Virus record (IMG/VR): IMGVR_UViG_3300037294_000266
Span: 202,647-266,646 of that record
Length of the DNA stretch: 64,000 bases
Source of the DNA: a virus
Strand: one strand, 5' to 3'
The translations under genes and the position numbers were made by a program. The notes beneath the pieces were generated by a model. The model ran no database searches and was not told the DNA's origin. It saw only the letters and a list, made by a program, of their open reading frames with translations. Below are positions 23,941 through 41,949 of the stretch, piece by piece; position 1 is the stretch's first letter; each line of letters starts with the position of its first letter.

Positions 23941-24756
23941 ATGTTAGACAACTCAGCTAGTGTTTTCCGCTGTGTGGCGATGGGTACAGCGGCTGAAAAC
24001 AAGAAGCTCCGTGGTCCAGACGGAAACTTCTCAAAGAAACTATTGGTTACCGCTGTTGAGAAACTCCCATTCCTCGACGGGGAGCAAGTAGACCGTGTGG
24101 ATGCTGTCGAATATGAAGGTGTTGACGATCAAGGTAAGGCTCAGTCAGGTACCTCGTTTGTGTCAAATAACATCAACGCGTTCTGGCTACCTGAAACAAA
24201 CCGTCGAACACCACCGGACGTACAGCGTGGCGAGCGTATAGCCCTGTACCAGTACGCTAACAACGATAAGTACTACTGGCGTAGCATGGGCATGGACGAC
24301 AACCTACGGCGCTTAGAGACCGTCATTTTAGGTATCAATGCCAATCCGAATACAGGGACTGATGGCATCGATCCTGACAACATGTACTTCATTGAATTCA
24401 GCAGTCATACCAAGACGATCACCCTCAGTACCAGTCAGATGAACGGTGAGGTCTGTACATATGACTTCCAGTTTGACATGGCTACAGGTAAGGTAGTCCT
24501 TCAGGACAATTTGGGTAACTACGGTCTATTGAAGTCAACAGAATACTTCATAGAACTTAAGAATGGCCTGGGCACGTGGCTGCAGCTCAATAAACAAGAC
24601 ATCTTTGGCTTCGCTCCTCGTAACATTGATCTTACAGCTACCAATAACGTCGATGTCAAGGCCAAAAAGATTACCTTAAACGGAGGCGGTTCTATATTCA
24701 CTCTTCAGGCGTCTGGCACTACATTGAAGACTCCTAAATTCCAAGGGATGACGTAA
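23941..24756 (+). CDS. Baseplate spike shaft-like protein (271 aa)
   Basis: The N-terminal half is mixed and contains an OB-like stretch. The C-terminal 70 residues are a run of short alternating beta strands (NIDLTATNNVDVKAKKITLN, then GGGSIFTLQASGTTLKTPKF) typical of the triple beta-helix of phage central spikes. Its stop codon overlaps the start of the PAAR gene (TAATG), so the two are translated together. Spike shaft plus PAAR tip form the membrane-piercing needle of contractile tails. The family is inferred from strand pattern and partner gene. Confidence 0.65.
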   Translation: MLDNSASVFRCVAMGTAAENKKLRGPDGNFSKKLLVTAVEKLPFLDGEQVDRVDAVEYEGVDDQGKAQSGTSFVSNNINAFWLPETNRRTPPDVQRGERIALYQYANNDKYYWRSMGMDDNLRRLETVILGINANPNTGTDGIDPDNMYFIEFSSHTKTITLSTSQMNGEVCTYDFQFDMATGKVVLQDNLGNYGLLKSTEYFIELKNGLGTWLQLNKQDIFGFAPRNIDLTATNNVDVKAKKITLNGGGSIFTLQASGTTLKTPKFQGMT

Positions 24757-25019
24757 TGGGTATCGTGTCGCTAGTTAACGTTGACAGTGCGGGTGGTAAA
24801 ATAGCAGGTCCTGGCGCGCCTACTTGGACTTGGAATGGCATCGTCATTTCGTTATTAGGTGATGCCGTCGTTGGTCACGGACTACCTCCACATACCGCTC
24901 CTGTCATTGTCAGTGCAAGTGAATGGATGACAATCGATGGTGTTAAGGTAACACGGGTTGGAAGTATGGCTGGCTGCGGACATGGCGTAACCGGATCAAG
25001 TCAGATGGATATTCCATAA
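24756..25019 (+). CDS. PAAR-like spike tip protein (87 aa)
   Basis: Small protein with the PAAR pattern: GDAVVGHGLPPHTAPVIVSA, then VKVTRVGSMAGCGHGVTGSS. The three His residues and the Cys in the GHG, PPH and CGHG segments would bind the metal at the tip. PAAR proteins form a sharp cone on the trimeric spike of contractile tails and type VI secretion systems. Immediately downstream of, and overlapping, the spike shaft gene. Confidence 0.8.
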   Translation: MGIVSLVNVDSAGGKIAGPGAPTWTWNGIVISLLGDAVVGHGLPPHTAPVIVSASEWMTIDGVKVTRVGSMAGCGHGVTGSSQMDIP

Positions 25020-26323: not shown

Positions 26324-26460
26324 TTATCGCCTTCTCCCACGATAATGGTATGCCAGTTGTTTGATATCTGTATTAAACACAGATTTGTTTAAAAAGAAAT
26401 GACTCAGATTCTAGGGCCAGGTTCGGCACCAGAACCGTGGAGATCCCAACGGAGACTGCA

Positions 26461-28854
26461 ATGAGCACTGTAATTCCAGATTATCCTTTTGATCCGACGG
26501 GTGTCGCTGAAACGAACTTGGTTGTTGAAACCCAGGCTATCGAATCACGCGGCACGTTCGACCATTACCATGTGGTCCCACGGGTCGCACCTTTCTTTGC
26601 TGAGAGTGTGAAACTCCGTCTTTACCCAATCGGCGCGAACGTCAATAACCCAGCTGGTGGAGAAGCTCTTGAAGAGGGCATCCACTACAACTTCGGTTAC
26701 CACTTCGCTTATGCATCGCATACCATTGGTAAGCCTGTATATAGCAGCATCACCTTCTATGACCGCACGTTGCGTGGTCAGTTGCGTATGGAATACCAGA
26801 CGCTGGGTGGTGAGTGGGTTCTCGATGAGCAGAAGTACAACGAACTTCTACTTAACGTATCTCGCAATCCTCGTATCGCCACCTGGGAACAGATGGTCGA
26901 ACTACCTCGGGAGTTTCCCGTTGTAGATCACGATTTCAACATCGACGATTTTGTCGGCATGACTGAAGTTGTGGACGAATTGGGTGACATCGAGCAAGCG
27001 ATCCTTCAATCAAACGAAGGTGGGTTGAACGACCATATTGAAAGTACTAATAATCCGCACTCAGTTACTAAAGACCAGGTAGGTCTTGGTCTGGTCGATA
27101 ACTTCCCTTCGGCAGCGCCGGGTGAAGCGACTGCTGGTGTGGCGAACAACCGCTTCATGACACCGCTTCGTACTAAGCAGGCCATTGATGCACTCATTCT
27201 GCCTCAATTGACGGCTCACATGGGCAACACAGCTAACCCTCACCAGGTTACCAAAGCCCAGGTAGGTCTTGGCAGTGTTCAGAACTTTGCATTGGCCACT
27301 CAAGCAGAAGCTGAGGCTGGTTCAAGCAATGCTCGGTACAGCACACCACTTCGTGTCCGTGAGGCTATTGAAGCTATTGTCGGTGTGACGCTCAATGCTC
27401 ACATGGCCGATCGTTCCAATCCCCATCAGGTTACGCGTGTACACGTCGGTCTCGGTAATGTTGAGAACATCGGCATTGCAACCGATGTGGCAGCGATCCA
27501 AGGTGCAGATGACAGTGGTGTAATCACTCCTCGTCTATTGTCACTCGTGCTTGCTGAAACGATTGGTGGTGGTGTTTCTGAGCACATTCAGGATTTCACC
27601 AATCCTCACGGTGTGACGAAGACTCAGGTTGGGTTGGGTTCGGTTGATAACTTCCCTTCTGCGTCTGAAGCTGAAGCCCGCGATGCCACGCTCAGCAACC
27701 GCTTCATGACTCCGCTGGCGGTTCGTCAGGCGATCAACGAACTGGTCGGTGACAGTTCCAACGCACACGTGACGGACTTCGACAACCCTCATCAGGTTAC
27801 AGCAGAACAGGTGGGTACTTATCCATCGGTAACTATCGATCAGCTACTGAGTGACAAGCTTGGTAATGACGAAGCGGCTGCTGACACCGAATTGGTGTAC
27901 GGACTGGATCAGACTGGGTTAGAAGCATGGATCGGCACCATCAAGTCTGGCGACTCTAGTCGTTTAGATGGCATGACTCGACCAGAACTGACGGCTGATA
28001 TCTTGTCAGGCACTGCTGCTAACTCGATTCTCTTTGGTGGGAAGACATACAGCGAAATCGTGAGCGAGATTGGCGACACTGTAGACGGAGCTTCTATTCA
28101 GTTCCGTGTACCGGCGATGCTGGAATTGCTTGATGAGTTTGATGTCGAGACAACAGCGCCTGAACACTGGATCAAGCTGGGTGACTTTGGCGGAACAATC
28201 AACGAACAGCCGGCTGACGTGACGTTGATGATTGCTGGTGGTCGCGACGACTCCTTGGGCGATGATCAAATCCAACAGACGATTCTTGTTCAGATTGCTG
28301 CGACGTACGATTACACCGATGGCGGTCCTCCATTTGCAATGCAATTGAAGAGCGCTGTGATTAAAGAAATCACTCCAGGACCAAAGCCGATCGAGATCGG
28401 TTATCGTTCAATTGGATCGGACGGTACTGCTAAGGTAGAAGTTTACCTGAAAAGTATCGGTACTCGTAACTCCTTGTCTGTCACCGAGCTGTCGTTCAAG
28501 CGATTCAATGCAGCAGCGCAGGTCCAGTACACCGAGGTTGCTCAACTGACCACCGTAGAGCCTGTAGGTATTATCTACCCACCACGCTTGAAGGAAGGTA
28601 CGGCTGAAATCCTCGAACTGTTGGATCACGCCGCTGACACGACCAATCCACATCAGACTACAAAAGATCAAGTAGGTCTTGGCAACGTCGACGATTACGC
28701 AACGGCCTCCCCGGCTGAGGCTGTAACAGGCACTGCGACCAATCGCTTCATGACACCCGCCACCACTACCTCTAAGGTAGATGATGCCATCGGTGTCCTC
28801 TGTGACGAACTGATCCTCGTTATCGATGATGCTTTGGATAACTTGTTTGTCTGA
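26461..28854 (+). CDS. Tail fibre protein with NPH...QVGLG repeats (797 aa)
   Basis: Start chosen at ATG 26461 with CGGAGAC upstream. After an N-terminal virion-attachment region of about 190 residues come repeats of roughly 65-70 residues. Each repeat has a core of the form NPHxVTKxQVGLGxVDNF followed by an EAxAG..NNRFMTPLRTKxAI segment. Five cores fall in the middle (the fifth degenerate) and one near the C-terminus, separated by a non-repeat domain of about 250 residues. Such repeats are widespread in phage tail fibres and form trimeric shafts. The next gene is a shorter paralogue. Confidence 0.85.
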   Translation: MSTVIPDYPFDPTGVAETNLVVETQAIESRGTFDHYHVVPRVAPFFAESVKLRLYPIGANVNNPAGGEALEEGIHYNFGYHFAYASHTIGKPVYSSITFYDRTLRGQLRMEYQTLGGEWVLDEQKYNELLLNVSRNPRIATWEQMVELPREFPVVDHDFNIDDFVGMTEVVDELGDIEQAILQSNEGGLNDHIESTNNPHSVTKDQVGLGLVDNFPSAAPGEATAGVANNRFMTPLRTKQAIDALILPQLTAHMGNTANPHQVTKAQVGLGSVQNFALATQAEAEAGSSNARYSTPLRVREAIEAIVGVTLNAHMADRSNPHQVTRVHVGLGNVENIGIATDVAAIQGADDSGVITPRLLSLVLAETIGGGVSEHIQDFTNPHGVTKTQVGLGSVDNFPSASEAEARDATLSNRFMTPLAVRQAINELVGDSSNAHVTDFDNPHQVTAEQVGTYPSVTIDQLLSDKLGNDEAAADTELVYGLDQTGLEAWIGTIKSGDSSRLDGMTRPELTADILSGTAANSILFGGKTYSEIVSEIGDTVDGASIQFRVPAMLELLDEFDVETTAPEHWIKLGDFGGTINEQPADVTLMIAGGRDDSLGDDQIQQTILVQIAATYDYTDGGPPFAMQLKSAVIKEITPGPKPIEIGYRSIGSDGTAKVEVYLKSIGTRNSLSVTELSFKRFNAAAQVQYTEVAQLTTVEPVGIIYPPRLKEGTAEILELLDHAADTTNPHQTTKDQVGLGNVDDYATASPAEAVTGTATNRFMTPATTTSKVDDAIGVLCDELILVIDDALDNLFV

Positions 28855-28860
28855 CCATTA

Positions 28861-28888
28861 ACACGCTACCTCGAAAGGGGTAGCGTGT
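28861..28888 (+). terminator. Hairpin between the two tail-fibre genes
   Basis: ACACGCTACC / GGTAGCGTGT, a 10-bp stem with an eight-base loop, then GTTATTCG. It starts seven bases after the first fibre gene. Confidence 0.55.
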
Positions 28889-28923
28889 GTTATTCGAACC
28901 CCTTTTCGTGATGGAGCCTCTTC

Positions 28924-30498
28924 ATGAGTGTACCACCCATTATCCAGTATCCGTTCGACAGTTCTGGCGAATCGCTAACGAACAAAGTCGAGAATGAGCG
29001 GAGAACGATTGCTCTTAATACCGAGCGAGCGTTCGTCCCTGAAGCGGGTCCGTTTTACACCAGTTCGTTTAAAATCTGGAACGATGAGACCAATGAAGAA
29101 CTTCGTCCTGTCGACGATTACATTCTGGCTCAGCCGTTTTCCCAGGCATCTATCCGGACAGCAAAAGATGTTCAGTGCGCAATCATTCTGAAAGTACAAG
29201 CGCCTATCAGCGTTCGTTATACGTATCAGGTGGTTGGCGGTGAGTATTCATGGAACCTTCAGGGTCTTGCTGATCTCATTGCTGAACTCGATCTCGATGA
29301 ACGTCCTGTTAAATGGGGCGCTGTCATTGGTCGTCCTAACGCCTATCCGCCAGCTCCGCACATCCATGACATTGGCGATTCGTTTGGCTGGGAATATGTG
29401 GTATGGCAGCTTGAGCGCATTACCAATGCTATCTTGGTTGGTGATGAAGCATCGCACGATGAACTGCGTCAGCAGATGCAGACTATCCGCGATCAGTTAC
29501 AGGCTAACATCGATGCATTGGAAGCCAAGGTTGATGAACACATCAACGACTTTGACAATCCGCACCAAACCACGAAGGCTCAAGTGGGCCTTGGCCTAGT
29601 TGATAACTTCCAGACAGCCTCTCCTGCTGAAGCTTTGGCTGGCGTTCTCGGCAATCGGTTCATGACGCCTTCGCTGTCGAATAGCCTGGCTACTCGCATT
29701 GCGACTGAAGAAGTGGCAGAGCACGAAGCCCGTAAAGATAATCCACATGAAGTCACCAAGGCTCAGACCGGGCTTGGCAATGTGGACAACTTCATTACTG
29801 CCACCCGTGCAGAGGCTGAAGCCGGTACTCTCAATACCCGGTTCATGACGCCGTTGCGGACGAAGGAGGCAATTGATTTCATCGCAGGTAACTTGCTTCA
29901 AGCGCACGTTAACGATACCAACAACCCACACATCACTACCAAGGCTCAAGTCGGGCTTGGTTTGGTTGATAACTTCCAGACAGCTACCAAAGCTGAATCG
30001 GAAGCAGGTATCCTCAACAACCGCTTCATGACTCCGTTGCGTACTAAAGAAGCGATCAACTTCATCGCTGGTAACTTGATCAATGCTCACTTGGCTGACT
30101 TTGGCAACCCTCACCAGGTAACGAAGACGCAGGTCGGCTTGAGTAACATCCCGAACGCCATCACTCGTTCCCGTACTGCTAATACCAGTGCTGAACTATT
30201 GGTAGCTGGTGCGATGTATGACCATATCCTGTCTGGCGATCACGATAGCCGTTATGTCAAGATCAACGTGGCTCAGAATACATCTTTGCGGATCGTAGGA
30301 TCAACATTGCAGGGTTATGTGTCAGGCGCTTGGCGTCAGATCTGGCCAGCGACATGGACTGGTTATGTAACGCCAGGTGCAGCAGATCCATACCCAGGTA
30401 ACGCTACCGAGATTACTCTGATGAACGCGGGCGGTATTCTGTTCGCTTCTGTCAACGGTACGTGGCGTCAGGTGTGGCCAGCTCTCTGGAACGACTAA
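28924..30498 (+). CDS. Second tail fibre protein with NPH repeats (524 aa)
   Basis: Paralogue of the preceding fibre. The N-terminal 190 residues resemble the partner's (both begin with a YPFD motif). Four NPH..T..Q.GL. repeats follow. The C-terminal 80 residues contain two similar Trp-rich units, GAWRQIWPATWTGY and GTWRQVWPALWND, the second being the very end of the protein. The gene stops 21 bases before the cupin gene that opens the modification island. That makes this fibre a candidate substrate as well as a receptor-binding protein. Confidence 0.85.
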   Translation: MSVPPIIQYPFDSSGESLTNKVENERRTIALNTERAFVPEAGPFYTSSFKIWNDETNEELRPVDDYILAQPFSQASIRTAKDVQCAIILKVQAPISVRYTYQVVGGEYSWNLQGLADLIAELDLDERPVKWGAVIGRPNAYPPAPHIHDIGDSFGWEYVVWQLERITNAILVGDEASHDELRQQMQTIRDQLQANIDALEAKVDEHINDFDNPHQTTKAQVGLGLVDNFQTASPAEALAGVLGNRFMTPSLSNSLATRIATEEVAEHEARKDNPHEVTKAQTGLGNVDNFITATRAEAEAGTLNTRFMTPLRTKEAIDFIAGNLLQAHVNDTNNPHITTKAQVGLGLVDNFQTATKAESEAGILNNRFMTPLRTKEAINFIAGNLINAHLADFGNPHQVTKTQVGLSNIPNAITRSRTANTSAELLVAGAMYDHILSGDHDSRYVKINVAQNTSLRIVGSTLQGYVSGAWRQIWPATWTGYVTPGAADPYPGNATEITLMNAGGILFASVNGTWRQVWPALWND

Positions 30499-30519
30499 TG
30501 TAAAATGAGGACTCGCAAT

Positions 30520-31032
30520 ATGTTTAAACACATTCAGGATTTTTCATTCGAAGGTGTTGACCTGTCAGCACTGAGGATAGATGATCTCCTGTCGAGTCCT
30601 CTTCCTTACGAACTCGGGCTGCCCAGGTATCTCGAGTACGGCGGTACACATTCGTTGTTTAACGCAGCTGAATACTTCGAACACAGTCAGACGAAACCCA
30701 TTAAAGTAGAGGGGATAGAGAGACTCAGTGAATTACTGTACTCGACATCCCTTCGACTAGGCAGACACTTTAACCACACAGGTCCTGTGTCTTGCCACAT
30801 GTTCATCTCGCCTGCACAATCACTTAGTTTCCCAATGCATTCTGATACAGACGACGTAATCATCTACATGGTCAGCGGCCGTAAGGTTTATGAAGGTGTG
30901 GATGGGTCGTTAGAAGTGCGCGCTGGGGACAGTATCTATATTCCGCGTGGTACTTTGCACTGCGCGGTTAACACTGACGATTCCGTCATGCTCAGCTTTG
31001 GGCTTGAACGCTACCTGGAAGATAAATTGTGA
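30520..31032 (+). CDS. Cupin / JmjC-like protein (170 aa)
   Basis: Start chosen at ATG 30520, eight bases after GAGGA. The second half has the double-stranded beta-helix signature with metal ligands His107 and Asp109 (PMHSDTDD) and His147 (RGTLHCAVN), plus the AGDSIYIPRG turn of cupins. HxD...H is the Fe(II) site of 2-oxoglutarate oxygenases, including JmjC-type protein hydroxylases, so a protein-modifying oxygenase is plausible. It overlaps the first radical SAM gene by four bases (GTGA) and so is translationally coupled to it. Confidence 0.65.
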   Translation: MFKHIQDFSFEGVDLSALRIDDLLSSPLPYELGLPRYLEYGGTHSLFNAAEYFEHSQTKPIKVEGIERLSELLYSTSLRLGRHFNHTGPVSCHMFISPAQSLSFPMHSDTDDVIIYMVSGRKVYEGVDGSLEVRAGDSIYIPRGTLHCAVNTDDSVMLSFGLERYLEDKL

Positions 31033-32072
31033 GTACTCACAAGACGATCTATGTCAAGACGACCGGGACATGCAACCTTAACTGCCAACACTGCTTCACG
31101 AATGGGAAGAACGGGGATAAAACTCAGTTTGTACCGGAGGTAGTAGCCGGATGGGTACATGATTACATGGCTCAGCATTCAGCCGATACCAGTTACCACA
31201 TGGAGTTCCATGGCGGTGAGCCGTTCATTGTTCCATTGGAGAAGCTGAAACAGTTTGCTGATCATTTTGTTGACATGGAGAACGTTTCCATGTGTGCAAA
31301 CAGCAATCTGACGTTTAAGCTGACCGATGAGTTAATCGCATTCATCAAAGACTATCTTGGTGGGTACGTCGGCACCAGTTGGGACTATTGGATACGTTGG
31401 GGAAATGCTAAGCAGTTTGATCTCTGGAAGAAGAATCTGGAGACCCTGCGTTCGCACGGAATCGGCATCGGTGTTAAAGCATCGGTGAGCCGTCAGCTCA
31501 TCGAGAAATCGCCAGACTGGTTCATTGATCAGATGGAAGCGCTGGCTATCGAAGAAGTGAGTCTTGAACGCCTCACCAATGATGGCAGTGCCGTAGATCA
31601 CTCTGGGATCTTTCCTGACAATGAGGCGCAGGATAACTGGTACCTTGCACTGTATCTCCGTTACAAAGAACGAAACCCTCGGGTAAAGATAAAGACCCTT
31701 GACATCATCGAACAGAAGCTCATCCAGAACATTGTCAAAGTAGATACCAATTGTCGAAACTGTGAGCAGAACCTTGTCACGATGAATTCAGATGGGTCTC
31801 TTTCAGGATGTCCTAACGCAGCAGCTAGTCTTCATCATGCTAGAATCGATGAAGGGGTTGAAACGTTCCTTTCTTCAGATGGGCGTATTGATCAGATTGC
31901 AAAGGAATTATCTTGGGGAGACACCTGCCTCAACTGTGACGTATTTGATCTTTGTGGCGGTGATTGTCATCGCTTACCGTGGCAAGAAGGTCGCTGCGGT
32001 GGGTTAAAGAACACGCTGCGACATCTTTCTGGCAGACAGCCACAGCAAAACAACCTGATTATAAAGGTGTGA
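31029..32072 (+). CDS. Radical SAM/SPASM protein 1 (347 aa)
   Basis: GTG start overlapping the cupin stop. Radical SAM cluster motif CxxxCxxC at Cys15, Cys19 and Cys22 (TCNLNCQHC), followed by an EFHGGEP stretch that binds the SAM amino group. The C-terminal part has many cysteines in SPASM-like spacing (CRNCEQ, LSGCP, TCLNCDVFDLCGGDCHR). Auxiliary iron-sulphur clusters of this kind occur in enzymes that modify peptides and proteins, such as sactipeptide and ranthipeptide maturases and anaerobic sulfatase-maturating enzymes. The next gene, one base downstream, encodes the protein with the Cys-His-Xaa-Ser tail, the first candidate substrate. Confidence 0.85.
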   Translation: MSTHKTIYVKTTGTCNLNCQHCFTNGKNGDKTQFVPEVVAGWVHDYMAQHSADTSYHMEFHGGEPFIVPLEKLKQFADHFVDMENVSMCANSNLTFKLTDELIAFIKDYLGGYVGTSWDYWIRWGNAKQFDLWKKNLETLRSHGIGIGVKASVSRQLIEKSPDWFIDQMEALAIEEVSLERLTNDGSAVDHSGIFPDNEAQDNWYLALYLRYKERNPRVKIKTLDIIEQKLIQNIVKVDTNCRNCEQNLVTMNSDGSLSGCPNAAASLHHARIDEGVETFLSSDGRIDQIAKELSWGDTCLNCDVFDLCGGDCHRLPWQEGRCGGLKNTLRHLSGRQPQQNNLIIKV

Positions 32073-32073: not shown

Positions 32074-32607
32074 ATGACTGAAATAATTACACGTAACCGA
32101 ATGGCCGTGAATGCCAACTCGTTGATTACCAATCGATGTAAAGCGGGCATTTCCTGGGGGACGAACAACTACCCAGCGAACTCCGATCCTGCTTGGTTTG
32201 CGGGCACTAACGCAGGCCCTGACGCTGCATTTGGCGGCTATCAGTTTTCAGCCGGAGTTGCTAACGCACAGCAGGCGATCGACGTACTTAAATATGTCTC
32301 TAATCTATTTGCCAGTGTCCGAACCACTCGAATTGTAATTTACATGTCTCACTTCTCGCTGGGGCAGACTGTTGTTTCCGATAACACTGCAGTTGCTTGG
32401 ATCAATGCGCCTGCGGCTTTCAGTAATAACGTGGGAATGTGGTTTGCATCGGGATATGACATGGATCTTAACGCGTTTAATAACTCGTGTGAGGCTATCT
32501 ACAGTGCATATCTAGCAACGTGCCGTTATCAGACCGCTACGTTCACCCGAACCATTTGCCACACTAGCTGTCATAGCAGCTGTCATAGCAGCCGAGGCCG
32601 CCGATGA
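32074..32607 (+). CDS. Candidate modified protein with Cys-His-x-Ser tail (177 aa)
   Basis: No family is recognised for the 160-residue body, which is rich in Ala, Asn and aromatic residues. The C-terminus is striking: ICHTSCHSSCHSSRGRR, that is, three consecutive CxxS tetrapeptides with His after each Cys, then Arg-Gly-Arg-Arg. The last two units are encoded by a perfect 12-base tandem repeat (about 32565-32590). Radical SAM maturation systems with CXXX-repeat or Cys-rich precursor peptides are known, and this gene directly follows a SPASM-type radical SAM gene. It is therefore the best candidate substrate of the island. A metal-binding tail is the main alternative. Confidence 0.6.
   Translation: MTEIITRNRMAVNANSLITNRCKAGISWGTNNYPANSDPAWFAGTNAGPDAAFGGYQFSAGVANAQQAIDVLKYVSNLFASVRTTRIVIYMSHFSLGQTVVSDNTAVAWINAPAAFSNNVGMWFASGYDMDLNAFNNSCEAIYSAYLATCRYQTATFTRTICHTSCHSSCHSSRGRR
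32564..32592 (+). repeat. Tandem 12-base repeat encoding Cys-His-Ser-Ser
   Basis: Two exact copies of a 12-base unit (TGTCATAGCAGC) preceded by a diverged third copy with synonymous and one non-synonymous change. It encodes the CxxS tail of the 177-aa protein. Recent repeat expansion in a short core region is common in modified precursor peptides. Confidence 0.7.
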
Positions 32608-32657
32608 CATGTCATGTAAGTGCCATCAAACGGTCTAGAGAAGCAACTGGAGAACCC

Positions 32658-33440
32658 ATGGAACAGACTACTGAAGAAACCAAACCAGGCGGGGCGGTCA
32701 TCGACGGGCCGGTGATTGTCATTGAAACCACAGCCAATATTCCAATGGACTTACTTAAACGTAAGTTCAAAGAGAATATTGAGTTTGTCATCGATGTGGA
32801 CAACAGTCGTCTTAAAGGCGACATGCTGCTCACCTATCTGTCAAACCTCAAGCTTAACTGCAAGCTAAAGTTTGGTAGTCTCGAATCGTCTCTCGAACTC
32901 CTGTCGTCGTATTTAAAGATGTCTACGGTCATGTCGATTCCAGAATTGGAAGACCTGGCCATGAACATCATGCTGGCAGCGTATGGTAAAGATCATTACT
33001 GTCAATTCGATCCGACTGAGTTCATTCGTGACAACTCAGACATGATCGACGTGTGGCTCCGGCGGATGTGTGCACTCCCTTTGTTTGCATTACACTGTCA
33101 TCCAACGACCAAGGATTTTGTTTCTCAATTCCCAGTCGATGAAGACCATGAGCTGCACGGTATCAACTACGTGCAACTGATCAAGCACGAACTGTTCCCA
33201 GAATTCATCAATGACTTCAATCAAGAAGACATGTCGTACAACAGGTTATTGTTCAACGAATACTGTTTTGCAGGGCTGAACCTGTTTAACTATTTCGCGA
33301 TCCCCAATAACCCGTTGTTTGTGGGACTGATGGTACTCGACAAACCAGAACACCTCGAAGTGCTCATGGCTGCTGCTCATACGACTTACGTGACTGCTGA
33401 AACGATCATGAAGGAGCTCGAACATGTACCATCTGTGTAA
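32658..33440 (+). CDS. Hypothetical island protein (260 aa)
   Basis: Start chosen at ATG 32658 because GGAGAACCC precedes it. An upstream in-frame ATG at 32604 overlaps the previous stop (ATGA) and could give an 18-residue extension. Acidic N-terminus, then a helical body with several Cys/His (FALHCHP). No family recognised. It sits between the candidate substrate and a second unknown protein, and its 3' end overlaps the next gene by 17 bases, so it belongs to the same translational unit. Confidence 0.55.
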   Translation: MEQTTEETKPGGAVIDGPVIVIETTANIPMDLLKRKFKENIEFVIDVDNSRLKGDMLLTYLSNLKLNCKLKFGSLESSLELLSSYLKMSTVMSIPELEDLAMNIMLAAYGKDHYCQFDPTEFIRDNSDMIDVWLRRMCALPLFALHCHPTTKDFVSQFPVDEDHELHGINYVQLIKHELFPEFINDFNQEDMSYNRLLFNEYCFAGLNLFNYFAIPNNPLFVGLMVLDKPEHLEVLMAAAHTTYVTAETIMKELEHVPSV

Positions 33441-34470
33441 ATCGATTTACGTCGATAGCGAACACCGCATCGACCGTAATAAAGATGTGATCACAATCTC
33501 TCCAAAGATCGGGTTTGAACACATCGCTGAAGAGAAAGGTGTGCAGATCGGTTATGCTACAAGTCTGGATGAGTTGTCTCCTGAAGCGTTAGAGGCGATG
33601 CTCAACAAAGGTCTTGCTGCCGATGACCGTGTGACCGTCTATTGTGACGGTAAGACGTACTTGCGTCTTTACACCATGTTGATAAAGGCTGTATTGCCGA
33701 ACTTAACACTGGATCTGTTCCGATGGATCATGCTGTGTAAGAAGGCTACTTTCAATACGACTATCGTTGCAGGCGGCGAGCCTAACGTGGATGTGTTGGC
33801 CAGTATCCAGATCAATAACAAGGTCTGTCACGAGCTCTTCATGGAAGCCAGTACTCTGCAACCAGTGATCGATGCACTGGTCAATGAGAACCCAGACTTC
33901 CTTTCGCTGGAATGGCGCTTGATTCGTCTGCGTACTGAAGGTCGTGTCGGTAAGATCCCAGGTGTACTCAACAACATCCTGCGTCGCATTGCTCTGAGCA
34001 ATGCTCATGATGCCATGGACGTCTGGGGTCGTCATCTGACCCGCGAGAAGAACTGGGACATCGCTGGCGCTGATCTCGATACGCTTCTGAACGCACCCAC
34101 TGTGTTCGAAGGGTGTTTGAACATGCCGCACTTGGCGAGTCAACAACTCCTGCGTCCTGGTCTGTATGATTTCTCACCGACCAAGCCCTGGATCATCGGC
34201 ATGCTGCGTGAGGCCGTAGGTCTGATGGAAGTCCTTGAGGACGAGTCATCTGCTAAACGCGCTGCTCACATTCTTGAGCTGTTTAGTTCACCTGTCAATT
34301 TACGTGAGTCTGATGCATGCTTGCAGCGTGTTGTTGATATGTTTGCAGGTGAGATGCGCATTGCACTGGCTTTCAAGGATACTGGCAAATACGACGAGAA
34401 CTTGATTCGGTTCATTCTCGAATCAGATATCGAAGTGCTCAAAACTTCTCTTGAAGGGGCTGAATGGTAA
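33424..34470 (+). CDS. Hypothetical island protein (348 aa)
   Basis: Overlaps the previous gene by 17 bases and the next radical SAM gene by seven, so it is part of the coupled block. The N-terminal 90 residues look alpha/beta and the remainder helical. No catalytic motif seen. It could be a scaffold or substrate-recognition partner for the modification enzymes, which is inference from position. Confidence 0.55.
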   Translation: MYHLCKSIYVDSEHRIDRNKDVITISPKIGFEHIAEEKGVQIGYATSLDELSPEALEAMLNKGLAADDRVTVYCDGKTYLRLYTMLIKAVLPNLTLDLFRWIMLCKKATFNTTIVAGGEPNVDVLASIQINNKVCHELFMEASTLQPVIDALVNENPDFLSLEWRLIRLRTEGRVGKIPGVLNNILRRIALSNAHDAMDVWGRHLTREKNWDIAGADLDTLLNAPTVFEGCLNMPHLASQQLLRPGLYDFSPTKPWIIGMLREAVGLMEVLEDESSAKRAAHILELFSSPVNLRESDACLQRVVDMFAGEMRIALAFKDTGKYDENLIRFILESDIEVLKTSLEGAEW

Positions 34471-35462
34471 TGGACTTAATTCCCGTATTGAACATACTCG
34501 AGCAAAAGAAAGGTAAGTTGAAAGAAGCTCACCTCATTCTGTTCGAGTACTGTAATTTACGGTGTTCGTTCTGCCACCAGGACCACGAATCCAGAATCGG
34601 CATCAATACGATCCAGCAGAAAGTAGACACACTCATTGCCAACTCAAACCCACGTGATGCCTACGTGTTGAATTTGACTGGCGGTGAGTTATTTCTTGAT
34701 GAGTTCAGCGATGGGCTCTTTGAGGAATACTACGAAGCCGGTAAACGTCTCTTAGAACACTTCGACGATGCGTTGCTGGTGCTGGGTACCAATCTGATCT
34801 ATCACAATGTAGCGCGGGTCATCAAGCTGGTCAATCGCTTAAAGCGATATGGTCGTGTGCAACTTGCCACGTCTTACGATCCAGCAGGACGATTCAACGC
34901 AGAACAACGGACACTGTTCTTCAAGAACCTTATCCATGTTCGTGACCTTGTACGCACGGTCAATGTGGTTATCACCAAGCAGAACATCCAGTCGTTTCTG
35001 GATGGACATGAAGGTGCCGAGTTCAAGTGGATGTGCGAACACTTTGACGTGTACTTCGATCATTACATCCCAAGTCAGATGTACGAGTATATCCAGCCGG
35101 ATGAAGACCTAATCAGTCAGCTCTACATGCACCTGAACAAACACTACCCAGACTCGTATCCGATCAAGGACTGGAAGAACAATGTGGAGAATACCACCAC
35201 TTGTCGATCCACTAAGATCATCAATAAGGATAATGTCGTGACCACCTGTTGGTCAGAAGCTGGGAAAGACTCTATCTTGGACGAGCAAGAAGGTTTGCTA
35301 GCCAAGGATGAGGCCGAGTTGCGGTTCCTTGAGAAATACGACTGCTTTGCCTGTGAGTTCTACTCGCGATGCGGGATGCGATGTTTCTTGCATCATTCGT
35401 TTGTGGATGATGGACTTGACAATGTCTGTCAGATAAAAACGATGTTCAGAGCCATCCTGTAA
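34464..35462 (+). CDS. Radical SAM protein 2 (332 aa)
   Basis: CxxxCxxC at Cys30, Cys34 and Cys37 (EYCNLRCSFC), then NLTGGELFLDEF, the usual SAM-binding glycine stretch. The C-terminal region has SPASM-like cysteines (TTCRST, TTCWSEAG, CFACEFYSRCGMRC). An in-frame ATG at 34470 is an alternative start with better spacing to AGGGG. Last gene of the first plus-strand part of the island, followed by a strong hairpin. Confidence 0.8.
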   Translation: MVMDLIPVLNILEQKKGKLKEAHLILFEYCNLRCSFCHQDHESRIGINTIQQKVDTLIANSNPRDAYVLNLTGGELFLDEFSDGLFEEYYEAGKRLLEHFDDALLVLGTNLIYHNVARVIKLVNRLKRYGRVQLATSYDPAGRFNAEQRTLFFKNLIHVRDLVRTVNVVITKQNIQSFLDGHEGAEFKWMCEHFDVYFDHYIPSQMYEYIQPDEDLISQLYMHLNKHYPDSYPIKDWKNNVENTTTCRSTKIINKDNVVTTCWSEAGKDSILDEQEGLLAKDEAELRFLEKYDCFACEFYSRCGMRCFLHHSFVDDGLDNVCQIKTMFRAIL

Positions 35463-35507: not shown

Positions 35508-36566
35508 CTAGGTCACTGCAGCGCACAGATCTTTTACACCCGATGGTGTCAGGTAACGTTCGGTTCCGAAGAGGTCATTGATGATGTTAGAGATGAACTG
35601 TTTGTGTAGGTTAGCGACTGTATTTGCTGGAACGCCTTTTATGCCGAATTGATTACAGTATTCGAACACCCCCCATTTCTTATCTTTGGTTACGAATAGA
35701 TCCAAAGAACTGAGAGGACCTATCACGTCCCGCGCCAATGCGCTTAAATCGTGAATTTGTTTAGAGGACAGCACCGACTCGATGGAAACAATGTCTTCAC
35801 CAAGGATACTGTTTGTGTTCGATCCTGATGCTTGGGGAAACCCATCGGCATTGTAGACATTACGTTTCTGGACGTAAGCGATCTCGCTCTGCGCGCCAGT
35901 GATTATACGGTACTCAGATTCAATATTGTCAACAAACGATTGAATCGAATAACCTTGGGTTTTTAGACCAGACAGGCCTTCATCGACGTGATGTTCGCCG
36001 CGTGTAGAATAAGCCATATCCGGATCGTACTTATTCAGCTCTTCAAACAGTTCTTTGCTGGTAGACATGCCCTTGATGTACTTATCAAGAGCTTCAATCA
36101 TTACAGCAAATGGAATCTTATCAGTATCGACAAGAAACTGTCCTATTCCACGAGCTCCGTCGTTAGGCTTGATGACTACCTTACCACTCGGGTTGACAAG
36201 ACTACTGAGTCCCAGTGCTTGGGAGTGCACCCATGATTTAATTTTGACGAAGTCGTCATCGTTAAACTGTAACCGCCCAGCAGTGCGCTTGACATAGTTG
36301 TTGATCCGCATTGCCTGTTCGGTTTTACTATACCGGCGATTTACGAACACCATATGTGGTGGCAGTATGCGCTCAGCAGCGATCTCATTGATCTTTAAAG
36401 TGCCGTCACTGATCATGAAATCAAAGTTGAAATGCTCCTCTCCATCAATGACGCTAAGTTGAGGGTCGTTGTGGAAGAATATTTGTTTATTGTTAATGAC
36501 AATGCCTTGATGCAGCACCCAGAAATTGTTCATGAACTTACTAACAACGATATATACACGTTCCAT
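35508..36566 (-). CDS. ATP-grasp-like ligase (352 aa)
   Basis: Start chosen at ATG 36566, six bases after AGGAG; the longer reading from 36626 lacks a site. ATP-grasp features are visible: VVIKPNDGARGIGQFLV with the phosphate-loop lysine at residue 133, a later FVDNIESEYRII segment, and a metal-binding end of the form DLFVTKDKKWGVFEYCNQFGIKG. ATP-grasp enzymes join a carboxylate to an amine or hydroxyl through an acyl-phosphate. Related enzymes make ester and amide crosslinks in graspetides or add amino acids to proteins (RimK). It is the only minus-strand gene inside the modification island. Substrate unknown. Confidence 0.65.
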   Translation of the reverse strand: MERVYIVVSKFMNNFWVLHQGIVINNKQIFFHNDPQLSVIDGEEHFNFDFMISDGTLKINEIAAERILPPHMVFVNRRYSKTEQAMRINNYVKRTAGRLQFNDDDFVKIKSWVHSQALGLSSLVNPSGKVVIKPNDGARGIGQFLVDTDKIPFAVMIEALDKYIKGMSTSKELFEELNKYDPDMAYSTRGEHHVDEGLSGLKTQGYSIQSFVDNIESEYRIITGAQSEIAYVQKRNVYNADGFPQASGSNTNSILGEDIVSIESVLSSKQIHDLSALARDVIGPLSSLDLFVTKDKKWGVFEYCNQFGIKGVPANTVANLHKQFISNIINDLFGTERYLTPSGVKDLCAAVT

Positions 36567-36624
36567 CGGAGACTCCTGATGTTTAGACCATATAAGACCA
36601 CAGGTAAGTAAAACATAACGATAC

Positions 36625-36637
36625 AATCCCTATGTAA
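36625..36637 (+). promoter_or_regulatory. Possible phage promoter, TATG-type motif
   Basis: AATCCCTATGTAA, 24 bases from the G of TATG to the start at 36658. Matches the AATCCTATGTA word before the gene at 56053. It would drive the second plus-strand part of the modification island. Confidence 0.4.
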
Positions 36638-37081: not shown

Positions 37082-38170
37082 GTGGATGTTATAGTTAAAC
37101 CGACCGTTGCTTGTAATTTTAAGTGTACATTCTGTTCGAGTACTCATTTATCAGAAAACCCAACAGATATCGTAGAGCTCTCTACGCTTAAGCAGTTTAT
37201 CCAGCGCTTCCCAGAAACCAATACCGTGATCGTCAATGGTGGAGACCCGCTCATGATGCCTCCTGAGTATTACTGGGAGATGATTAAGATGCTGGATGAA
37301 CTTGATAGTCATGCGAGCATCAGTTTCACCAGTAACCTCTGGCCTTTCTACAAGAAGCCTGAGATATGGGAAGAGTTATTCAAACATGATCGCCTAGGTA
37401 TCACGACTTCTTTCCAATACGGTGACAAGCGCCTCAAAGGCGACAAGTCAGTCTTCACAGAAGAAGACTTCAGGAATGTCAGTGACATGTTCCTTGAACG
37501 CATTGGTTACCGTCCTAGCTTCATTGCCGTCATTGACAAGGACAACGAGCACACTGTCTTGGACACGGTTCGTCTGGCTAAGGAAATGGGTGTTGAAGCC
37601 AAGATCAACCACGTTGTTGCTTCAGGACCCGAAGTGGATAATCGTGGCATCATCATGGGCAGTCAGAATAACTTCTTCACTCAGGCGGATATCTACCGTC
37701 ATTATGTCCAGATCTACGATGCCGGTCTGATGGAGTGGGAATACAACACCAAACAGATGGCTAAGAAGCTTAAGGGATTGGCCACTACCTGTCCGTTAGC
37801 ACGGAACTGCGACAGTGGTATTCGAGCATTGCAGCCTGGCGGTGGTTATTATTCATGTGGGTCGTTTGGTGATGATGGCGAACATCCCATTGACTTCGAA
37901 GCAGAGATGGCCGGCGAGTTCTTCACCCCACTGCAATACGAAGCCGACTTAGACTCGATGAAAGAGTCGTGCTACACATGCCCTATGTTCAGTATTTGTA
38001 ATGGCTGTCGTAAAACCATTGCAGACACCAAGCGAATGGGACTTGTAGAACATCATTGCAAAACCATGAAAGAGATTGCTCCACGGATCATCGATATCAA
38101 CGGACTGACCGGTAAGGTATTTCCAACGCCATACGTTGACGAATCAGTGCAGCTCATTGCTAAGGCATAA
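37082..38170 (+). CDS. Radical SAM protein 3 (362 aa)
   Basis: GTG start after GAGGACTGATCT. CxxxCxxC at Cys11, Cys15 and Cys18 (ACNFKCTFC) and VIVNGGDPLMMPPE for SAM binding. The C-terminal region has further cysteines in SPASM-like order (CPLARNCDSG, YYSCGSFG, CYTCPMFSICNGCR). One of four radical SAM genes in a row, each within a few bases of the next. Confidence 0.85.
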   Translation: MDVIVKPTVACNFKCTFCSSTHLSENPTDIVELSTLKQFIQRFPETNTVIVNGGDPLMMPPEYYWEMIKMLDELDSHASISFTSNLWPFYKKPEIWEELFKHDRLGITTSFQYGDKRLKGDKSVFTEEDFRNVSDMFLERIGYRPSFIAVIDKDNEHTVLDTVRLAKEMGVEAKINHVVASGPEVDNRGIIMGSQNNFFTQADIYRHYVQIYDAGLMEWEYNTKQMAKKLKGLATTCPLARNCDSGIRALQPGGGYYSCGSFGDDGEHPIDFEAEMAGEFFTPLQYEADLDSMKESCYTCPMFSICNGCRKTIADTKRMGLVEHHCKTMKEIAPRIIDINGLTGKVFPTPYVDESVQLIAKA

Positions 38171-38173
38171 TTC

Positions 38174-39100
38174 ATGACAAAGCCTAAAATAAATATCAGT
38201 ATCAACCCGTGGTATTTCTGTAATTTTAAATGTGACTTCTGCTACTTGACTCCTGAGCAATTAGGGGATCGAAAGCGTCTTGACCTCGAGACACTCGAAC
38301 AACGGCTCGATGAACTCCTGCAACATTACGTTATCGGACACATCGATCTATATGGTGGTGAAGTATTACTACTGCCTGAAGAATACATCAATGCTATCCG
38401 TGACATGTTACACGTCCGAGGTATTGATGACTTGGTTCTGGTTACTAACCTGTCTCATCTCCACCCAGTCGTTCACGAGAAGGATTGGGAAATATCGGTC
38501 TCGTATGACTTTGATGCTCGTGAGAAACATGAACATGTGTTACAGAACATGCTTCTCATGACACAACCTTTCAGTATCTTGTCTCTGGCAGGGCGCCAGT
38601 TTCTCGATAAGGTTACTCCAGACATCTACGTCGACACGATGAATATGTTTGGTAATCTGAAAGGTTGTGAGATCAAACCTTACAGTAGTAACCAAGCCAA
38701 CGACCAGCCTGTGACGTACCGAGAATACGAAGAGTTTGTCTGGGCAGTGATTGATCATCCGGCTCGTAACTTCTACTTTGAGAACGCCACTCAGGTTGAA
38801 GAAGCATTTGAAGGCACTCGTAATTCATTCAGCGATGACCACATCTACATCACACCTGAAGGTAAGTTTGCAGTACTGGAGTTCGATGACAATGATCATG
38901 AATTCTTTATGCCACTGGAATCGATTGCAGAGTACCAACAGTGGTGTGTAATCGAGAAGAGCCGTGTTAATGTCAATCCGATCTGTTCGGCATGTCCTTA
39001 CAACGGATCTTGTCTCTCTGAACACCTTCGTAATGTAACGTCCCTCGATAATTCCTGTAATGGGTTCCGAGGACTCATTGATAAATGGGGTGCATCGTGA
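38174..39100 (+). CDS. Radical SAM protein 4 (308 aa)
   Basis: CxxxCxxC at Cys16, Cys20 and Cys23 (FCNFKCDFC), followed by DLYGGEVLLLPE. The C-terminal cysteines (ICSACPYNGSC, NSCNG) suggest a shortened auxiliary-cluster domain. Starts four bases after protein 3 and overlaps the start of protein 5. Its N-terminal motif and layout resemble protein 3, so the two may be paralogues. Confidence 0.8.
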   Translation: MTKPKINISINPWYFCNFKCDFCYLTPEQLGDRKRLDLETLEQRLDELLQHYVIGHIDLYGGEVLLLPEEYINAIRDMLHVRGIDDLVLVTNLSHLHPVVHEKDWEISVSYDFDAREKHEHVLQNMLLMTQPFSILSLAGRQFLDKVTPDIYVDTMNMFGNLKGCEIKPYSSNQANDQPVTYREYEEFVWAVIDHPARNFYFENATQVEEAFEGTRNSFSDDHIYITPEGKFAVLEFDDNDHEFFMPLESIAEYQQWCVIEKSRVNVNPICSACPYNGSCLSEHLRNVTSLDNSCNGFRGLIDKWGAS

Positions 39101-40149
39101 AAGCTCAACATCTTGAAGTAGAACACAGGCAGCGCCTGGAGATCACTCTCGACATCTTTCGAGGGTGTGGTCATAGCTGCTCAGGCTGCATGATCAATAC
39201 GTCGCTGGGTGGGGATGTCAACGACATTCCTGAACTCCATGCACTGATCAGTGAAATGGTTGACGTTGGGTATGTGGCGTTTGATCTCGGTGTAGGTCCT
39301 ACTGATTACATGTCTGCAGACAACACCGCCGAGGTCATGGACCATCCGGTCTTTCAAGAGATGGCGCAGAAATTCCATCAGGTTACGTTCAACGCAGCGT
39401 TCCTTGAGAAAGACATGGAGAAGTATAGGTCGATGTGCGAAGACATTGACCTGGCACTCCCTGGTAAATCTATACGCTTCTTAATTCCGGCAGCGCCTCC
39501 ATTTTTCAAGACACACAAGTTTGGCGACATGATTGAATCCAAACTTGAGTTCGTGAAGGATAATCTACATAGCGCTTACCTGAATGAAGCTGGCTTTGTG
39601 GTTAACTGCACGGCAGACACTGTGGGTGATGACTTTGAGGCCATGATGAATAATGGCTTTGATATTGAATTCCCTGTTGATAAGGATGATATCTTGAATA
39701 TCCCTTACGGTCGAGCGCCTGTAAAGGATCTGATGACGGCACAGCACATCAAGCGGATGTCTCATCGCATCACTCAGTTCTATTCAACACTGAATGGTAC
39801 AGATGAGCGTCGTCGCAATCCTGATCTCTGCTACCACACCGGTACCATGGTCAATCTCCTGTACACCGGCGGTAAGCTTTACTGGGTGCCTTTCCTTAAA
39901 GACGACTGCGCGTTCCTTGAAGATGCTTTCTCTGTGTCGAAGCCCTGGTCTATGGATAATCTCCTAAAGACTCGTCAGGCGGCTCTAGAGAGCGCTCTAG
40001 ACTACCTTAAGGACACGCCGTGCATGACCTGTCCTTATCTGAGCAGTTGTTCAGAGAAAGGTATCATTAACATCATGGAACACATGCAGATCCGTGATTG
40101 TCTAGTTGGGTTAGAACATGTTAAATCAACCGCAGAGTCCAGCGTTTAA
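39097..40149 (+). CDS. Radical SAM protein 5 (350 aa)
   Basis: Start chosen at GTG 39097, which overlaps the previous stop (GTGA) and follows GGGG. An ATG at 39085 is the alternative. CxxxCxxC at Cys24, Cys28 and Cys31 (GCGHSCSGC) with ITLDIFRG before it. The usual GGE motif is not obvious; FDLGVGPTDYMS stands in its place, shared in form with protein 6 (FTIGPVDVISS). C-terminal CMTCPYLSSCSEKG. Proteins 5 and 6 form a distinct pair within the island. Overlaps protein 6 by 32 bases. Confidence 0.75.
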   Translation: MKAQHLEVEHRQRLEITLDIFRGCGHSCSGCMINTSLGGDVNDIPELHALISEMVDVGYVAFDLGVGPTDYMSADNTAEVMDHPVFQEMAQKFHQVTFNAAFLEKDMEKYRSMCEDIDLALPGKSIRFLIPAAPPFFKTHKFGDMIESKLEFVKDNLHSAYLNEAGFVVNCTADTVGDDFEAMMNNGFDIEFPVDKDDILNIPYGRAPVKDLMTAQHIKRMSHRITQFYSTLNGTDERRRNPDLCYHTGTMVNLLYTGGKLYWVPFLKDDCAFLEDAFSVSKPWSMDNLLKTRQAALESALDYLKDTPCMTCPYLSSCSEKGIINIMEHMQIRDCLVGLEHVKSTAESSV

Positions 40150-41098
40150 TCTGACCCTTGAGATTCTACAGGGGTGTAAGTACAACTGCGTAGGCTGTAT
40201 GGTCGATAAAGACTACGAGCCTCTTATTCCATTTGACCAGGACACGGATAAGATCCTTGAAATGGTCGATGCGATGAAAGCTGAAGGGTATCGGACTCGA
40301 GAGTTTACAATCGGGCCAGTGGATGTCATCAGCTCGAAGACAGGGGATTCGATATTCGATCATCGCTTGATTAAGGGGCTGGCTGAGCGGTTTGAATCTG
40401 TCGTCATTCCGTTAGCACTGATGAAAGGGAAGTCGTTTACACTGGCCACTCCTTTCCAGCTAAAGAGTACTGACAACCCTAAACACGTCGATCTAATAAA
40501 GCGTCGTGTGATGTTCATCCAAGCGTCATTGCCTGACGTTAAATTTGAGCTACTGTACATTACCGTTAACATGATTGGCGATGCAGTAGATGCATTTGAT
40601 GTTGCATTAAACCGAAGACTCCATGATATTGATTTTGGTGTCAGACGACTCATTGAGTTTGTATTCCCTCACCCTAGAAAGGGGTTGGATAATTTACTCA
40701 TGCAGAACTTGTTTAAGCGCAACTTCGGACATTTCTGTGACGTCATTAAACAGTGTAAGAACACTGATCTAAATCGTCATCTCATTAAACCAGCTGATGA
40801 TAGCTACGAAACAACCTATCGTGATGGCAGACTGTATTACACACCGACACTGATCGAGAAGTTTCCTATATTCGATCCGATGTTTGAAATAACGTCTCCA
40901 TGGACTCTCGAGAAGATAGAGCTGTTCAAGATGGATCTCTATCTAGACAGTCTGGTTAAATATTCAGTGAGCGGACCGTGCAGTAAGTGTTGTAATTTAA
41001 GTAAGTGTGCTGAGGGCGATGTTCACTCCATCATGACTCATTTGAATGACTCGACTTGTCTGGTATCTCTTTATAACGACTGGAGTGTGATAACGTGA
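40118..41098 (+). CDS. Radical SAM protein 6 (326 aa)
   Basis: CxxxCxxC at Cys20, Cys24 and Cys27 (GCKYNCVGC) after LTLEILQ, then FTIGPVDVISS in the SAM-binding position. The C-terminal CSKCCNLSKCAEGDVHSIMTHL matches protein 5 in layout (CMTCPYLSSC...INIMEHM). Clearly paralogous to protein 5. The stop overlaps the start of the oxygenase-like gene (GTGA). Confidence 0.75.
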   Translation: MLNQPQSPAFNLTLEILQGCKYNCVGCMVDKDYEPLIPFDQDTDKILEMVDAMKAEGYRTREFTIGPVDVISSKTGDSIFDHRLIKGLAERFESVVIPLALMKGKSFTLATPFQLKSTDNPKHVDLIKRRVMFIQASLPDVKFELLYITVNMIGDAVDAFDVALNRRLHDIDFGVRRLIEFVFPHPRKGLDNLLMQNLFKRNFGHFCDVIKQCKNTDLNRHLIKPADDSYETTYRDGRLYYTPTLIEKFPIFDPMFEITSPWTLEKIELFKMDLYLDSLVKYSVSGPCSKCCNLSKCAEGDVHSIMTHLNDSTCLVSLYNDWSVIT

Positions 41099-41532
41099 GT
41101 AAGGAAGAACAGCTTACTTTTATTCAGTTAGAACAGATGCCTTTTCCAGATTGGCTGATAGACGCTGTCCTTTGTGAACCTAACAAAGCGTTCATTGAGA
41201 CAGCGTCTATCAACGACTACGTCAACAGCATCATACTGCCAATTGTTGCTGATGAACTCAACTGGCCAGACAATCTGCAAGTGACAGCAAACCATGTCCA
41301 TTGTAGCAGTGACGGACTCGAGCCACACGACCATCTCCCTCACGAATACACTTCAGTACTCTATCTCATTGATGCCGAAGGTGATCTGATTGTTCATGAC
41401 GATGGCGAACACCGTGTCACGCCAGCAGAAGGTCGGTTTGTTCTGATGGACGCTCGTCTTAAACACAGTGTTGAACCATCCAACTGCATGCGTATTTCTC
41501 TGGTGACCAACTATGCAACCACCTGCCTATAA
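41095..41532 (+). CDS. Fe(II)/2-oxoglutarate oxygenase-like protein (145 aa)
   Basis: GTG start overlapping the previous stop. The second half shows the strand pattern of prolyl-hydroxylase-like oxygenases: HDHLPHEYTSVLYLIDAEGD (first metal ligands), then EGRFVLMDARLKHSVEP (distal His) and MRISLVTNY, with an Arg in the 2-oxoglutarate position. Short for the family, so possibly a minimal domain. Overlaps the next gene by 20 bases. Confidence 0.6.
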   Translation: MSKEEQLTFIQLEQMPFPDWLIDAVLCEPNKAFIETASINDYVNSIILPIVADELNWPDNLQVTANHVHCSSDGLEPHDHLPHEYTSVLYLIDAEGDLIVHDDGEHRVTPAEGRFVLMDARLKHSVEPSNCMRISLVTNYATTCL

Positions 41533-41947
41533 AGACTATCAACTGCTCTACGATGAATATGTCCAAGAGCATGCTGACGATTTTGCTAACATGGAAATCG
41601 TTGAGGATCCTGAACTTGTGGAAAACGCGCTCCATTACTTCAAGGAAGCGTCTTTCCCGCTCATCTATCCGGCTAAGAGTTATGCGGTGGCTATCATTTA
41701 CGCCACTAAGATTCATGAACTCTACGATATCCCAGTCAAGACGACCTTGAATGATCCCGATCTATTCTTAGGACATGACCGGTACTTCGTTCCGTATGAG
41801 CTAGATCCCCACACCTACGACGCTATCTTGGCTCGCTTAGAGACTATTCCTAATTGGATGGAATCTGGCTGGGCTCCGCAGTCGGTGAAGTACTGTCTTT
41901 TAGAATGTACTGAAGACGGTGTCAACTCGGTATTGAGCGGAGAGTGA
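41513..41947 (+). CDS. Hypothetical island protein (144 aa)
   Basis: Lies between oxygenase-like genes with overlaps or contact on both sides, so it is part of the same unit. Acidic, Tyr-rich, with one segment LIYPAKSYAVAIIYATKIHELY. No family recognised. Possibly an accessory or substrate protein. Confidence 0.5.
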   Translation: MQPPAYKDYQLLYDEYVQEHADDFANMEIVEDPELVENALHYFKEASFPLIYPAKSYAVAIIYATKIHELYDIPVKTTLNDPDLFLGHDRYFVPYELDPHTYDAILARLETIPNWMESGWAPQSVKYCLLECTEDGVNSVLSGE

Positions 41948-41949
41948 CC

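Follow-up and report, generated by a model that had tools for sequence, protein, structure and literature searches.

The closest described systems are the triceptide or cyclophane-forming rSAM-SPASM systems (HaaB, YhhB, ScaB, MscB/FxsB and AmcB), in which a SPASM radical SAM (rSAM) enzyme stands beside a substrate with a His/aromatic-x-acceptor triplet, and known links between residues i and i+2 are His-C-beta(Ala), His-C-beta(Arg) and Phe-C-beta(Ser) (PMC11002830). The locus described here resembles them in that arrangement but differs in that the candidate substrate is phage-encoded and a folded protein of fibre type instead of a short leader-core peptide, that an invariant Cys stands ahead of each His, and that its enzyme, rSAM1, scores far below all family cut-offs. 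With the ranthi- and sactipeptides, CXXX-repeat and SCIFF peptides (PapB and relatives) it has in common the four-residue spacing of Cys next to a SPASM rSAM, whereas here the RGRR end is fixed, the acceptor residues are other ones and the Cys-bearing part is not a free peptide; none of the NCBIfam precursor models for ranthi- and sactipeptides matched the tail proteins above cut-off. The His-Xaa-Ser system (HxsA/B/C/D) likewise combines H-x-S triplets with radical SAM enzymes, but here the period is four with Cys and the Hxs models are unmatched, the HxsA model giving no match to the tail proteins. A precedent for rSAM thioethers in a functional protein, not a released peptide, is found in QhpC/QhpD of quinohemoprotein amine dehydrogenase (PMC11002830), although that substrate is an enzyme subunit and not a virion or adhesion fibre. 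The S74 phage fibres and the MAT fibres of Bdellovibrio resemble the present family in their S74-type fibre surroundings (seen in L200 and close to the copies in Bdellovibrionota), whereas most members of the tail family lack S74.

The window, meaning the whole stretch of 64,000 nucleotides analysed, covers the final 64 kb of a virus record of 266,646 bp. Its relevant features are given below by coordinates, strand and description.

23941-24756, plus strand: baseplate assembly/spike protein, upstream of the tail gene
24756-25019, plus strand: PAAR tip protein, upstream of the tail gene
26437..30498, plus strand: two tail-fibre/virion structural proteins (805 aa, 524 aa), encoded immediately before the modification genes
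30505..31032, plus strand: putative 2OG-Fe(II) oxygenase of JmjC/cupin type, usually the gene immediately before rSAM1
31029..32072, plus strand: rSAM1, SPASM radical SAM enzyme and proposed tail maturase, with CX3CX2C, CX2CX5CX3C and further conserved Cys
32074..32607, plus strand: CHxS-tailed putative fibre-tip protein of 177 aa, with a folded body and an invariant C-terminal tail
32557..32604, plus strand: the tail, CHTS-CHSS-CHSS-RGRR, proposed radical-SAM modification site, disordered in the model
32557-32568, 32569-32580 and 32581-32592, plus strand: tail units 1, 2 and 3
32593-32604, plus strand: RGRR codons, followed by the stop at 32605-32607
32604..33440, plus strand: h278, conserved partner protein, no fold assigned
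33424..34470, plus strand: h348, conserved uncharacterised island protein
34464..35462, plus strand: rSAM2, radical SAM enzyme
35508-36626, minus strand: ATP-grasp-like gene lying between rSAM2 and rSAM3; its Pfam matches are all weak
37082..41098, plus strand: rSAM3-rSAM6, four more radical SAM-type genes
41095-41532, plus strand: 2OG-Fe(II) oxygenase, slightly below the Pfam cut-off
41513-41947, plus strand: gene without assigned family between the oxygenases
41944-42507 and 42520-43071, plus strand: Pfam-supported 2OG-Fe(II) oxygenases

The start ATG of ORF 32074-32607 lies 2 bases past the final base of the stop codon of the SPASM rSAM gene (31029-32072), and the ORF ends in ICHTSCHSSCHSSRGRR, in agreement with the initial annotation, which had described a 177-aa protein with three Cys-His-x-Ser units after that gene. 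The C-terminal peptide expected from digestion with Glu-C/Asp-N and trypsin is ...TICHTSCHSSCHSSR. Units 2 and 3 form the exact 12-bp tandem duplication that had also been pointed out (tgtcatagcagc twice), and the 18-base CHxxCH pattern has two forward-strand matches in the whole 266,646-bp record, both within this ORF. Megablast of the region against named phages gave no match and tblastn of the 177-aa protein gave DT01 as its sole match, and relatives were therefore sought via rSAM1 and DNA patterns.

The set defined by body homology comprised 11 IMG/VR contigs (L002-L012, mostly large or fragments) and Pseudomonas phage pPa_SNUABM_DT01 (L001, 265,520 bp), with 39-60% identity over the alignment. 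All 12 aligned proteins ended (V/I)CHTSCHxxCHxxRGRR. Among these 12, invariant columns made up 12 of the last 16 as against 21 of the 171 others (Fisher p = 1.5e-7), and mean pair identity was 0.83 in the tail versus 0.50 in the body; at the level of sequence, conservation of the tail is far beyond chance. A second set was obtained with an rSAM1 profile built from a 16-sequence alignment in which the tail was not used, and the best 80 of 371 relatives were kept. Here 65 of 68 distinct proteins ended [C-H-x-(S/N/A/Q)]x3-R-(G/S)-R-R. In these 65 standard tails from the best 80 of 371, Cys was kept at 195/195 positions and His at 194/195 (one H to N), the residue two past His was Ser in 146, Asn in 30, Ala in 17 and Gln in 2 cases, and Val or Ile preceded the first Cys in 63/65. 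Codons were mixed among the units of the same best-80-of-371 tails and an exact 12-bp repeat between neighbouring units occurred in 0/65, so that the motif is kept by protein-level selection and not by slippage. Recent slippage was also rejected as the origin of the repeat in the window, since none of the 65 relatives keeps it, and by this comparison the 12-bp DNA repeat of ORF 32074-32607 is incidental.

An alignment of homologues had been proposed to see whether the number of repeats varies under constant spacing. The number of units was fixed at three in most tails, with L193 (two units), L199 (four, without RGRR), L200 (four, then another domain), L028 and L029 as exceptions. In the latter two, L028:7832-8515 and L029:7956-8660, long CHSSCHSN arrays with VPV/VV spacers run to the usual RGRR end. 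One His was lost in L230, and the tails of Atu_ph07 and Phosso end RSRR. In L138:2261-3629, L233, L237, L239 and L241 a body-like start (MAISNPVSTQGIVDRFEDLV) and the tail lie in two consecutive ORFs, for which a split gene, a frameshift or an intervening gene are options.

The spread of the family was investigated with pattern scans. Scanning IMG/VR for CHxxCHxxCHxxRGRR-stop gave 31 stretches, many on 220-277-kb contigs, and at least 119 when R-(G/S)-R-R and AGR codons were allowed, and 15 stretches with the tail pattern came from bacterial/archaeal genome contigs. Named phages included, 165 distinct tail proteins were obtained among the matches listed (the longest of 364 aa, some truncated where their contigs end). 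Single linkage of the bodies at E<1e-4 joined 152 of these 165 listed proteins in one cluster, and the other 13, in seven groups, were unlinkable by body sequence. Body similarity thus fades below sequence detection while the tail is nearly constant. The 165 proteins, mostly fetched by pattern, have C, H and R in common as a consequence of how they were selected and were for that reason left out of the conservation measures, the claims on conservation being based only on the body-homology and rSAM1 sets. An NCBIfam search with nine tail proteins gave none above cut-off. In PHROG, phrog_35144 includes the FLC6/RSF1-type tail protein (4.7e-129) under the annotation 'unknown function', without a link to the wider tail family or to rSAM. 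The tail strings were not found in the literature searched, nor was a paper describing the pairing of tail and rSAM1, and a comparative review of jumbo phages does not mention radical SAM. The 177-aa protein is a member of a widespread family of small, probable surface-fibre proteins of phages that also occurs in some predatory bacteria, and the family and its pairing with rSAM1 are apparently new to the literature.

The initial annotation had taken the protein as a candidate substrate of the adjacent rSAM. A CHxx-tailed gene was found at 77/77 rSAM1 loci with at least 700 bp downstream (best 80 of 371 relatives), directly 3' of rSAM1 in 72 and one ORF further in five (L201, L233, L237, L239 and L241). 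Intact rSAM genes beside homologues without the tail, named at the outset as evidence to the contrary, were looked for and found at 0/77 of these best-80-of-371 loci, and the proposal stands. Six named phages had an rSAM1 match; in all five whose neighbour was read (DT01, FLC6, SURPRISE13, Atu_ph07 and Phosso) the tail gene was directly 3' and annotated 'hypothetical protein'. Inversely, 148 distinct tail genes preceded by 300 bp or more of sequence were counted among the matches listed: rSAM1 alone adjoined 91 upstream, an rSAM in another arrangement adjoined 25 more, and 32 had no direct rSAM neighbour, 27 of the latter being tail genes that occur two in tandem. At such paired loci an rSAM5-like enzyme usually adjoins the tail genes, and rSAM1 lies a few kb away in contigs of sufficient length (L095, L117 and L132). 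L051, L053, L058, L066 and others encode two tail proteins of about 125-140 aa in tandem; an rSAM5-like gene comes next, and then often h278 and several more rSAM5-like genes. For the tail genes of L152 and L085 no rSAM was found within the fetched stretch, and each lies directly 3' of a large structural-type gene. From gene order, rSAM1 and the tail protein form a real, strong and near-obligate pairing of enzyme and candidate substrate; neighbouring genes need not be enzyme and substrate, and it is from the pairing that we infer an action of rSAM1 on the tail.

The same linkage bears on the reading that a fibre, probably a trimer, binds Fe or Zn at its tip through the Cys/His tail in the manner of T4 gp37 and related fibres, with the rSAMs acting elsewhere. 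Each chain offers three Cys and three His, and HxH iron sites are known experimentally in T4 gp37 and predicted in alterophage fibres (PMC11705849), but the CHxx units contain no HxH motif, and neither the 77/77 linkage to one SPASM enzyme (best 80 of 371) nor the constant RGRR end is explained, making a metal-binding tip unlikely.

The body of the protein was modelled with AlphaFold2 on 60 sequences, giving a mean pLDDT of 91.1 for residues 1-160, mostly above 90; pTM was 0.84, and the tail came out disordered, with block means of 53-66. A classical RiPP precursor is short, with a disordered leader and a cleavable core; the body here, by contrast, has some 160 residues with a confidently predicted fold (mean pLDDT 91), and on this model the leader-peptide role, one of two that had been suggested, is rejected. 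With Foldseek the model matched the DT01 homologue and further phage proteins, among them the 296-aa protein of Atu_ph07 (E 2.5e-4, TM 0.50). Foldseek/VIA of the body monomer against the PDB gave no convincing match, which does not imply a novel fold.

The other suggested role, a virion protein with a modified tail, is probably correct in view of the S74 fusion and the fibre and baseplate context. L200 carries past its CHxS array a Peptidase_S74 domain (Pfam 1.5e-11), an autoproteolytic chaperone of tail fibres and spikes, together with tail-fibre PHROG matches, and is the single S74 fusion seen. In the window, the baseplate, PAAR and fibre genes listed above precede the tail gene. The 524-aa fibre protein ends at 30300-30498 in two Trp-rich repeats (GAWRQIWPATW ... 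GTWRQVWPALWND), which are kept in the L003 relative; this end could be another substrate of the island rSAMs. The tail homologue of Atu_ph07 is gp170 and its major head protein gp215, the numbering of the record agreeing with the paper, an ESI-MS/MS virion study that named 'CDS 170-215' as a virion-protein cluster (PMC6102473). Being the first gene of that cluster, gp170 lies at its boundary, and this position suggests that it was detected in the virion. Release of the tail by cleavage as a small bioactive peptide, with the body as an unusual leader, would agree with the SPASM maturase linkage and with the tandem paired substrates at some loci, but it is highly improbable given the folded body, the position of the gene among fibre genes, the S74 fusion, and the fact that no RiPP-type peptidase or exporter was noticed among the genes examined, a subset of all genes.

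The gene order cupin-rSAM1-tail-h278-h348-rSAM2 is conserved in many loci, and an h278-type gene occurs within 1.5 kb 3' in 126/178 tail-gene entries among the matches listed, some contigs being counted repeatedly. The true start of h278 is probably the ATG at 32659, the first 29 residues having very low model confidence, and Foldseek/VIA of its model against the PDB found no fold, novelty not being implied. The assignment of rSAM5 is based only on similarity to an annotated radical SAM gene of DT01 and the CX3CX2C motif. Relatives of the ATP-grasp-like gene occupy the corresponding position in L002, L003 and L006. Six rSAMs and several oxygenases exceed the obvious needs of three short units, as would be expected if the rSAM genes made a small molecule or modified other fibre proteins, the tail protein being a structural neighbour with a tail conserved for assembly. 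We regard this as quite unlikely, however, since the constant part beside rSAM1 is the tail and not the body, and adjacency persists across bodies that are unlinkable by sequence and in bacteria.

Of the 15 genome-contig matches, eight bore labels of the Bdellovibrionaceae, the Bacteriovoracaceae or closely related groups, and one more, L057, deposited as 'bacterium', had a locus plan as in Bdellovibrionota; the sources are metagenome bins, and organism names are thus given as deposited. In a Halobacteriovoraceae MAG (L054/L255; 382-kb contig) the module is flanked by MutL, MiaA and acyl-CoA dehydrogenase genes and has in its vicinity a gene whose product starts like a pseudopilin and carries Peptidase_S74, and a comparable gene with both N_methyl and S74 matches was found in a Bacteriovorax contig. 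Misbinned phage contigs were considered as the source of all bacterial copies, and this was ruled out for L054/L255 by the chromosomal flanking genes. The Rhodobacteraceae-bin copies look phage-derived, contigs C48 and C116 also having terminases; a PF03237 terminase search of the Bdellovibrionota bins found none. A small conserved protein with a VDGRHWVKVK-like end and no Pfam match was seen beside the S74 pseudopilin genes (L255:10698-11324, L258:7154-7705 and L259:2930-3526). Prey recognition by Bdellovibrio uses S74 'MAT' fibres, which are adhesins, and no radical SAM or Cys-His tail was reported for these (PMC10769870). With the Bdellovibrionota module lying beside S74 pseudopilin genes, evidence of a second kind places the tail on the adhesion fibres of bacterium-attacking agents.

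The nature of the modification was approached through rSAM1 and the tail together. In rSAM1 the cluster motif C15-X3-C19-X2-C22 was invariant among the 16 homologues aligned, as were the SPASM cysteines CX2CX5CX3C at 300-313 and C245, C261 and C323; the domain matches to Radical_SAM (2e-5) and SPASM (7e-6) were both slightly below curated cut-offs. Scored against NCBIfam families, rSAM1 reached no characterised cyclophane-forming family. The best match was the cyclophane maturase AmcB (1.7e-14, 53.6 bits vs a cut-off of 425), followed by the ranthipeptide maturase PapB (1.4e-13, 50.8 bits vs 340), and FxsB gave 41.8 and HxsB 27.9 bits (cut-off 370 for each); the near families, anaerobic sulfatase maturase and other cyclophane enzymes included, were all far under their cut-offs. 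A thioether joining each Cys sulfur to the carbon of a nearby residue, as in sacti- and ranthipeptides, with His as base or ligand and a knotted Cys tail as the result, is a possibility we hold tentatively. It agrees with the invariant Cys in all units of the 65 standard tails (best 80 of 371), with PapB among the best matches (E 1.4e-13) and with Cys as donor in rSAM thioether peptides (PMC11002830). On the other hand, i+3 holds Ser, Asn or Ala and the reported ranthipeptide acceptors (Asp, Glu, Thr and Asn) are mostly absent there, the invariance of His equals that of Cys, and the PapB score is far under cut-off (50.8 vs 340 bits). Each unit of the 65 standard tails (best 80 of 371), save the one with H to N, presents a triplet H-x-S/N/A(/Q), a His/aromatic-x-acceptor triplet beside a SPASM rSAM. 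Because H-x-(S/N/A) fits the triceptide spacing and acceptors, a three-residue cyclophane from His C2 to C-beta of residue i+2 is slightly favoured, the Cys thioether being a close second; since Cys is as invariant as His, Cys may be involved too, as thioether, disulfide or metal ligand.

We consider it probable that the gene 32074-32607 encodes a jumbo-phage fibre-tip protein and that the adjacent rSAM1 modifies the tail of this protein. In the proposed mechanism a small tail-fibre-tip (distal fibre) protein with a self-folding body would offer a flexible tail, three C-H-x-(S/N/A) units and an R-G-R-R cap, to rSAM1, which would crosslink the units while the virion is being assembled or beforehand, and the stiffer tip would then contact the host surface. 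The rSAM2-6 enzymes, the 2OG oxygenases, h278 and h348 may help in this step or carry out modifications of nearby fibre proteins. The wider claim, given about an even chance, is that [C-H-x-(S/N/A)]3-R-G-R-R is a portable, rSAM-crosslinked tag of fibre tips contacting Gram-negative bacteria in jumbo phages and predatory Bdellovibrionota, made by the enzymes of a dedicated island, namely 2OG oxygenases and rSAMs (six or more of the latter at most).

These results suggest that large phages chemically modify the fibre tips that touch the host. If true, the receptor-binding machinery of phages would undergo a post-translational modification of a new kind, with phage-borne radical SAM chemistry hardening or arming the fibre tip. 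It would give a role to the unexplained clusters of radical SAM and 2OG-oxygenase genes in jumbo phages (Chiangmaivirus, Atu_ph07-like and DT01) and a substrate to their enzymes, directly testable in cultured phages. The peptide chemistry of rSAM enzymes would then extend beyond small natural products to the structural proteins of fibres, those of predatory bacteria included.
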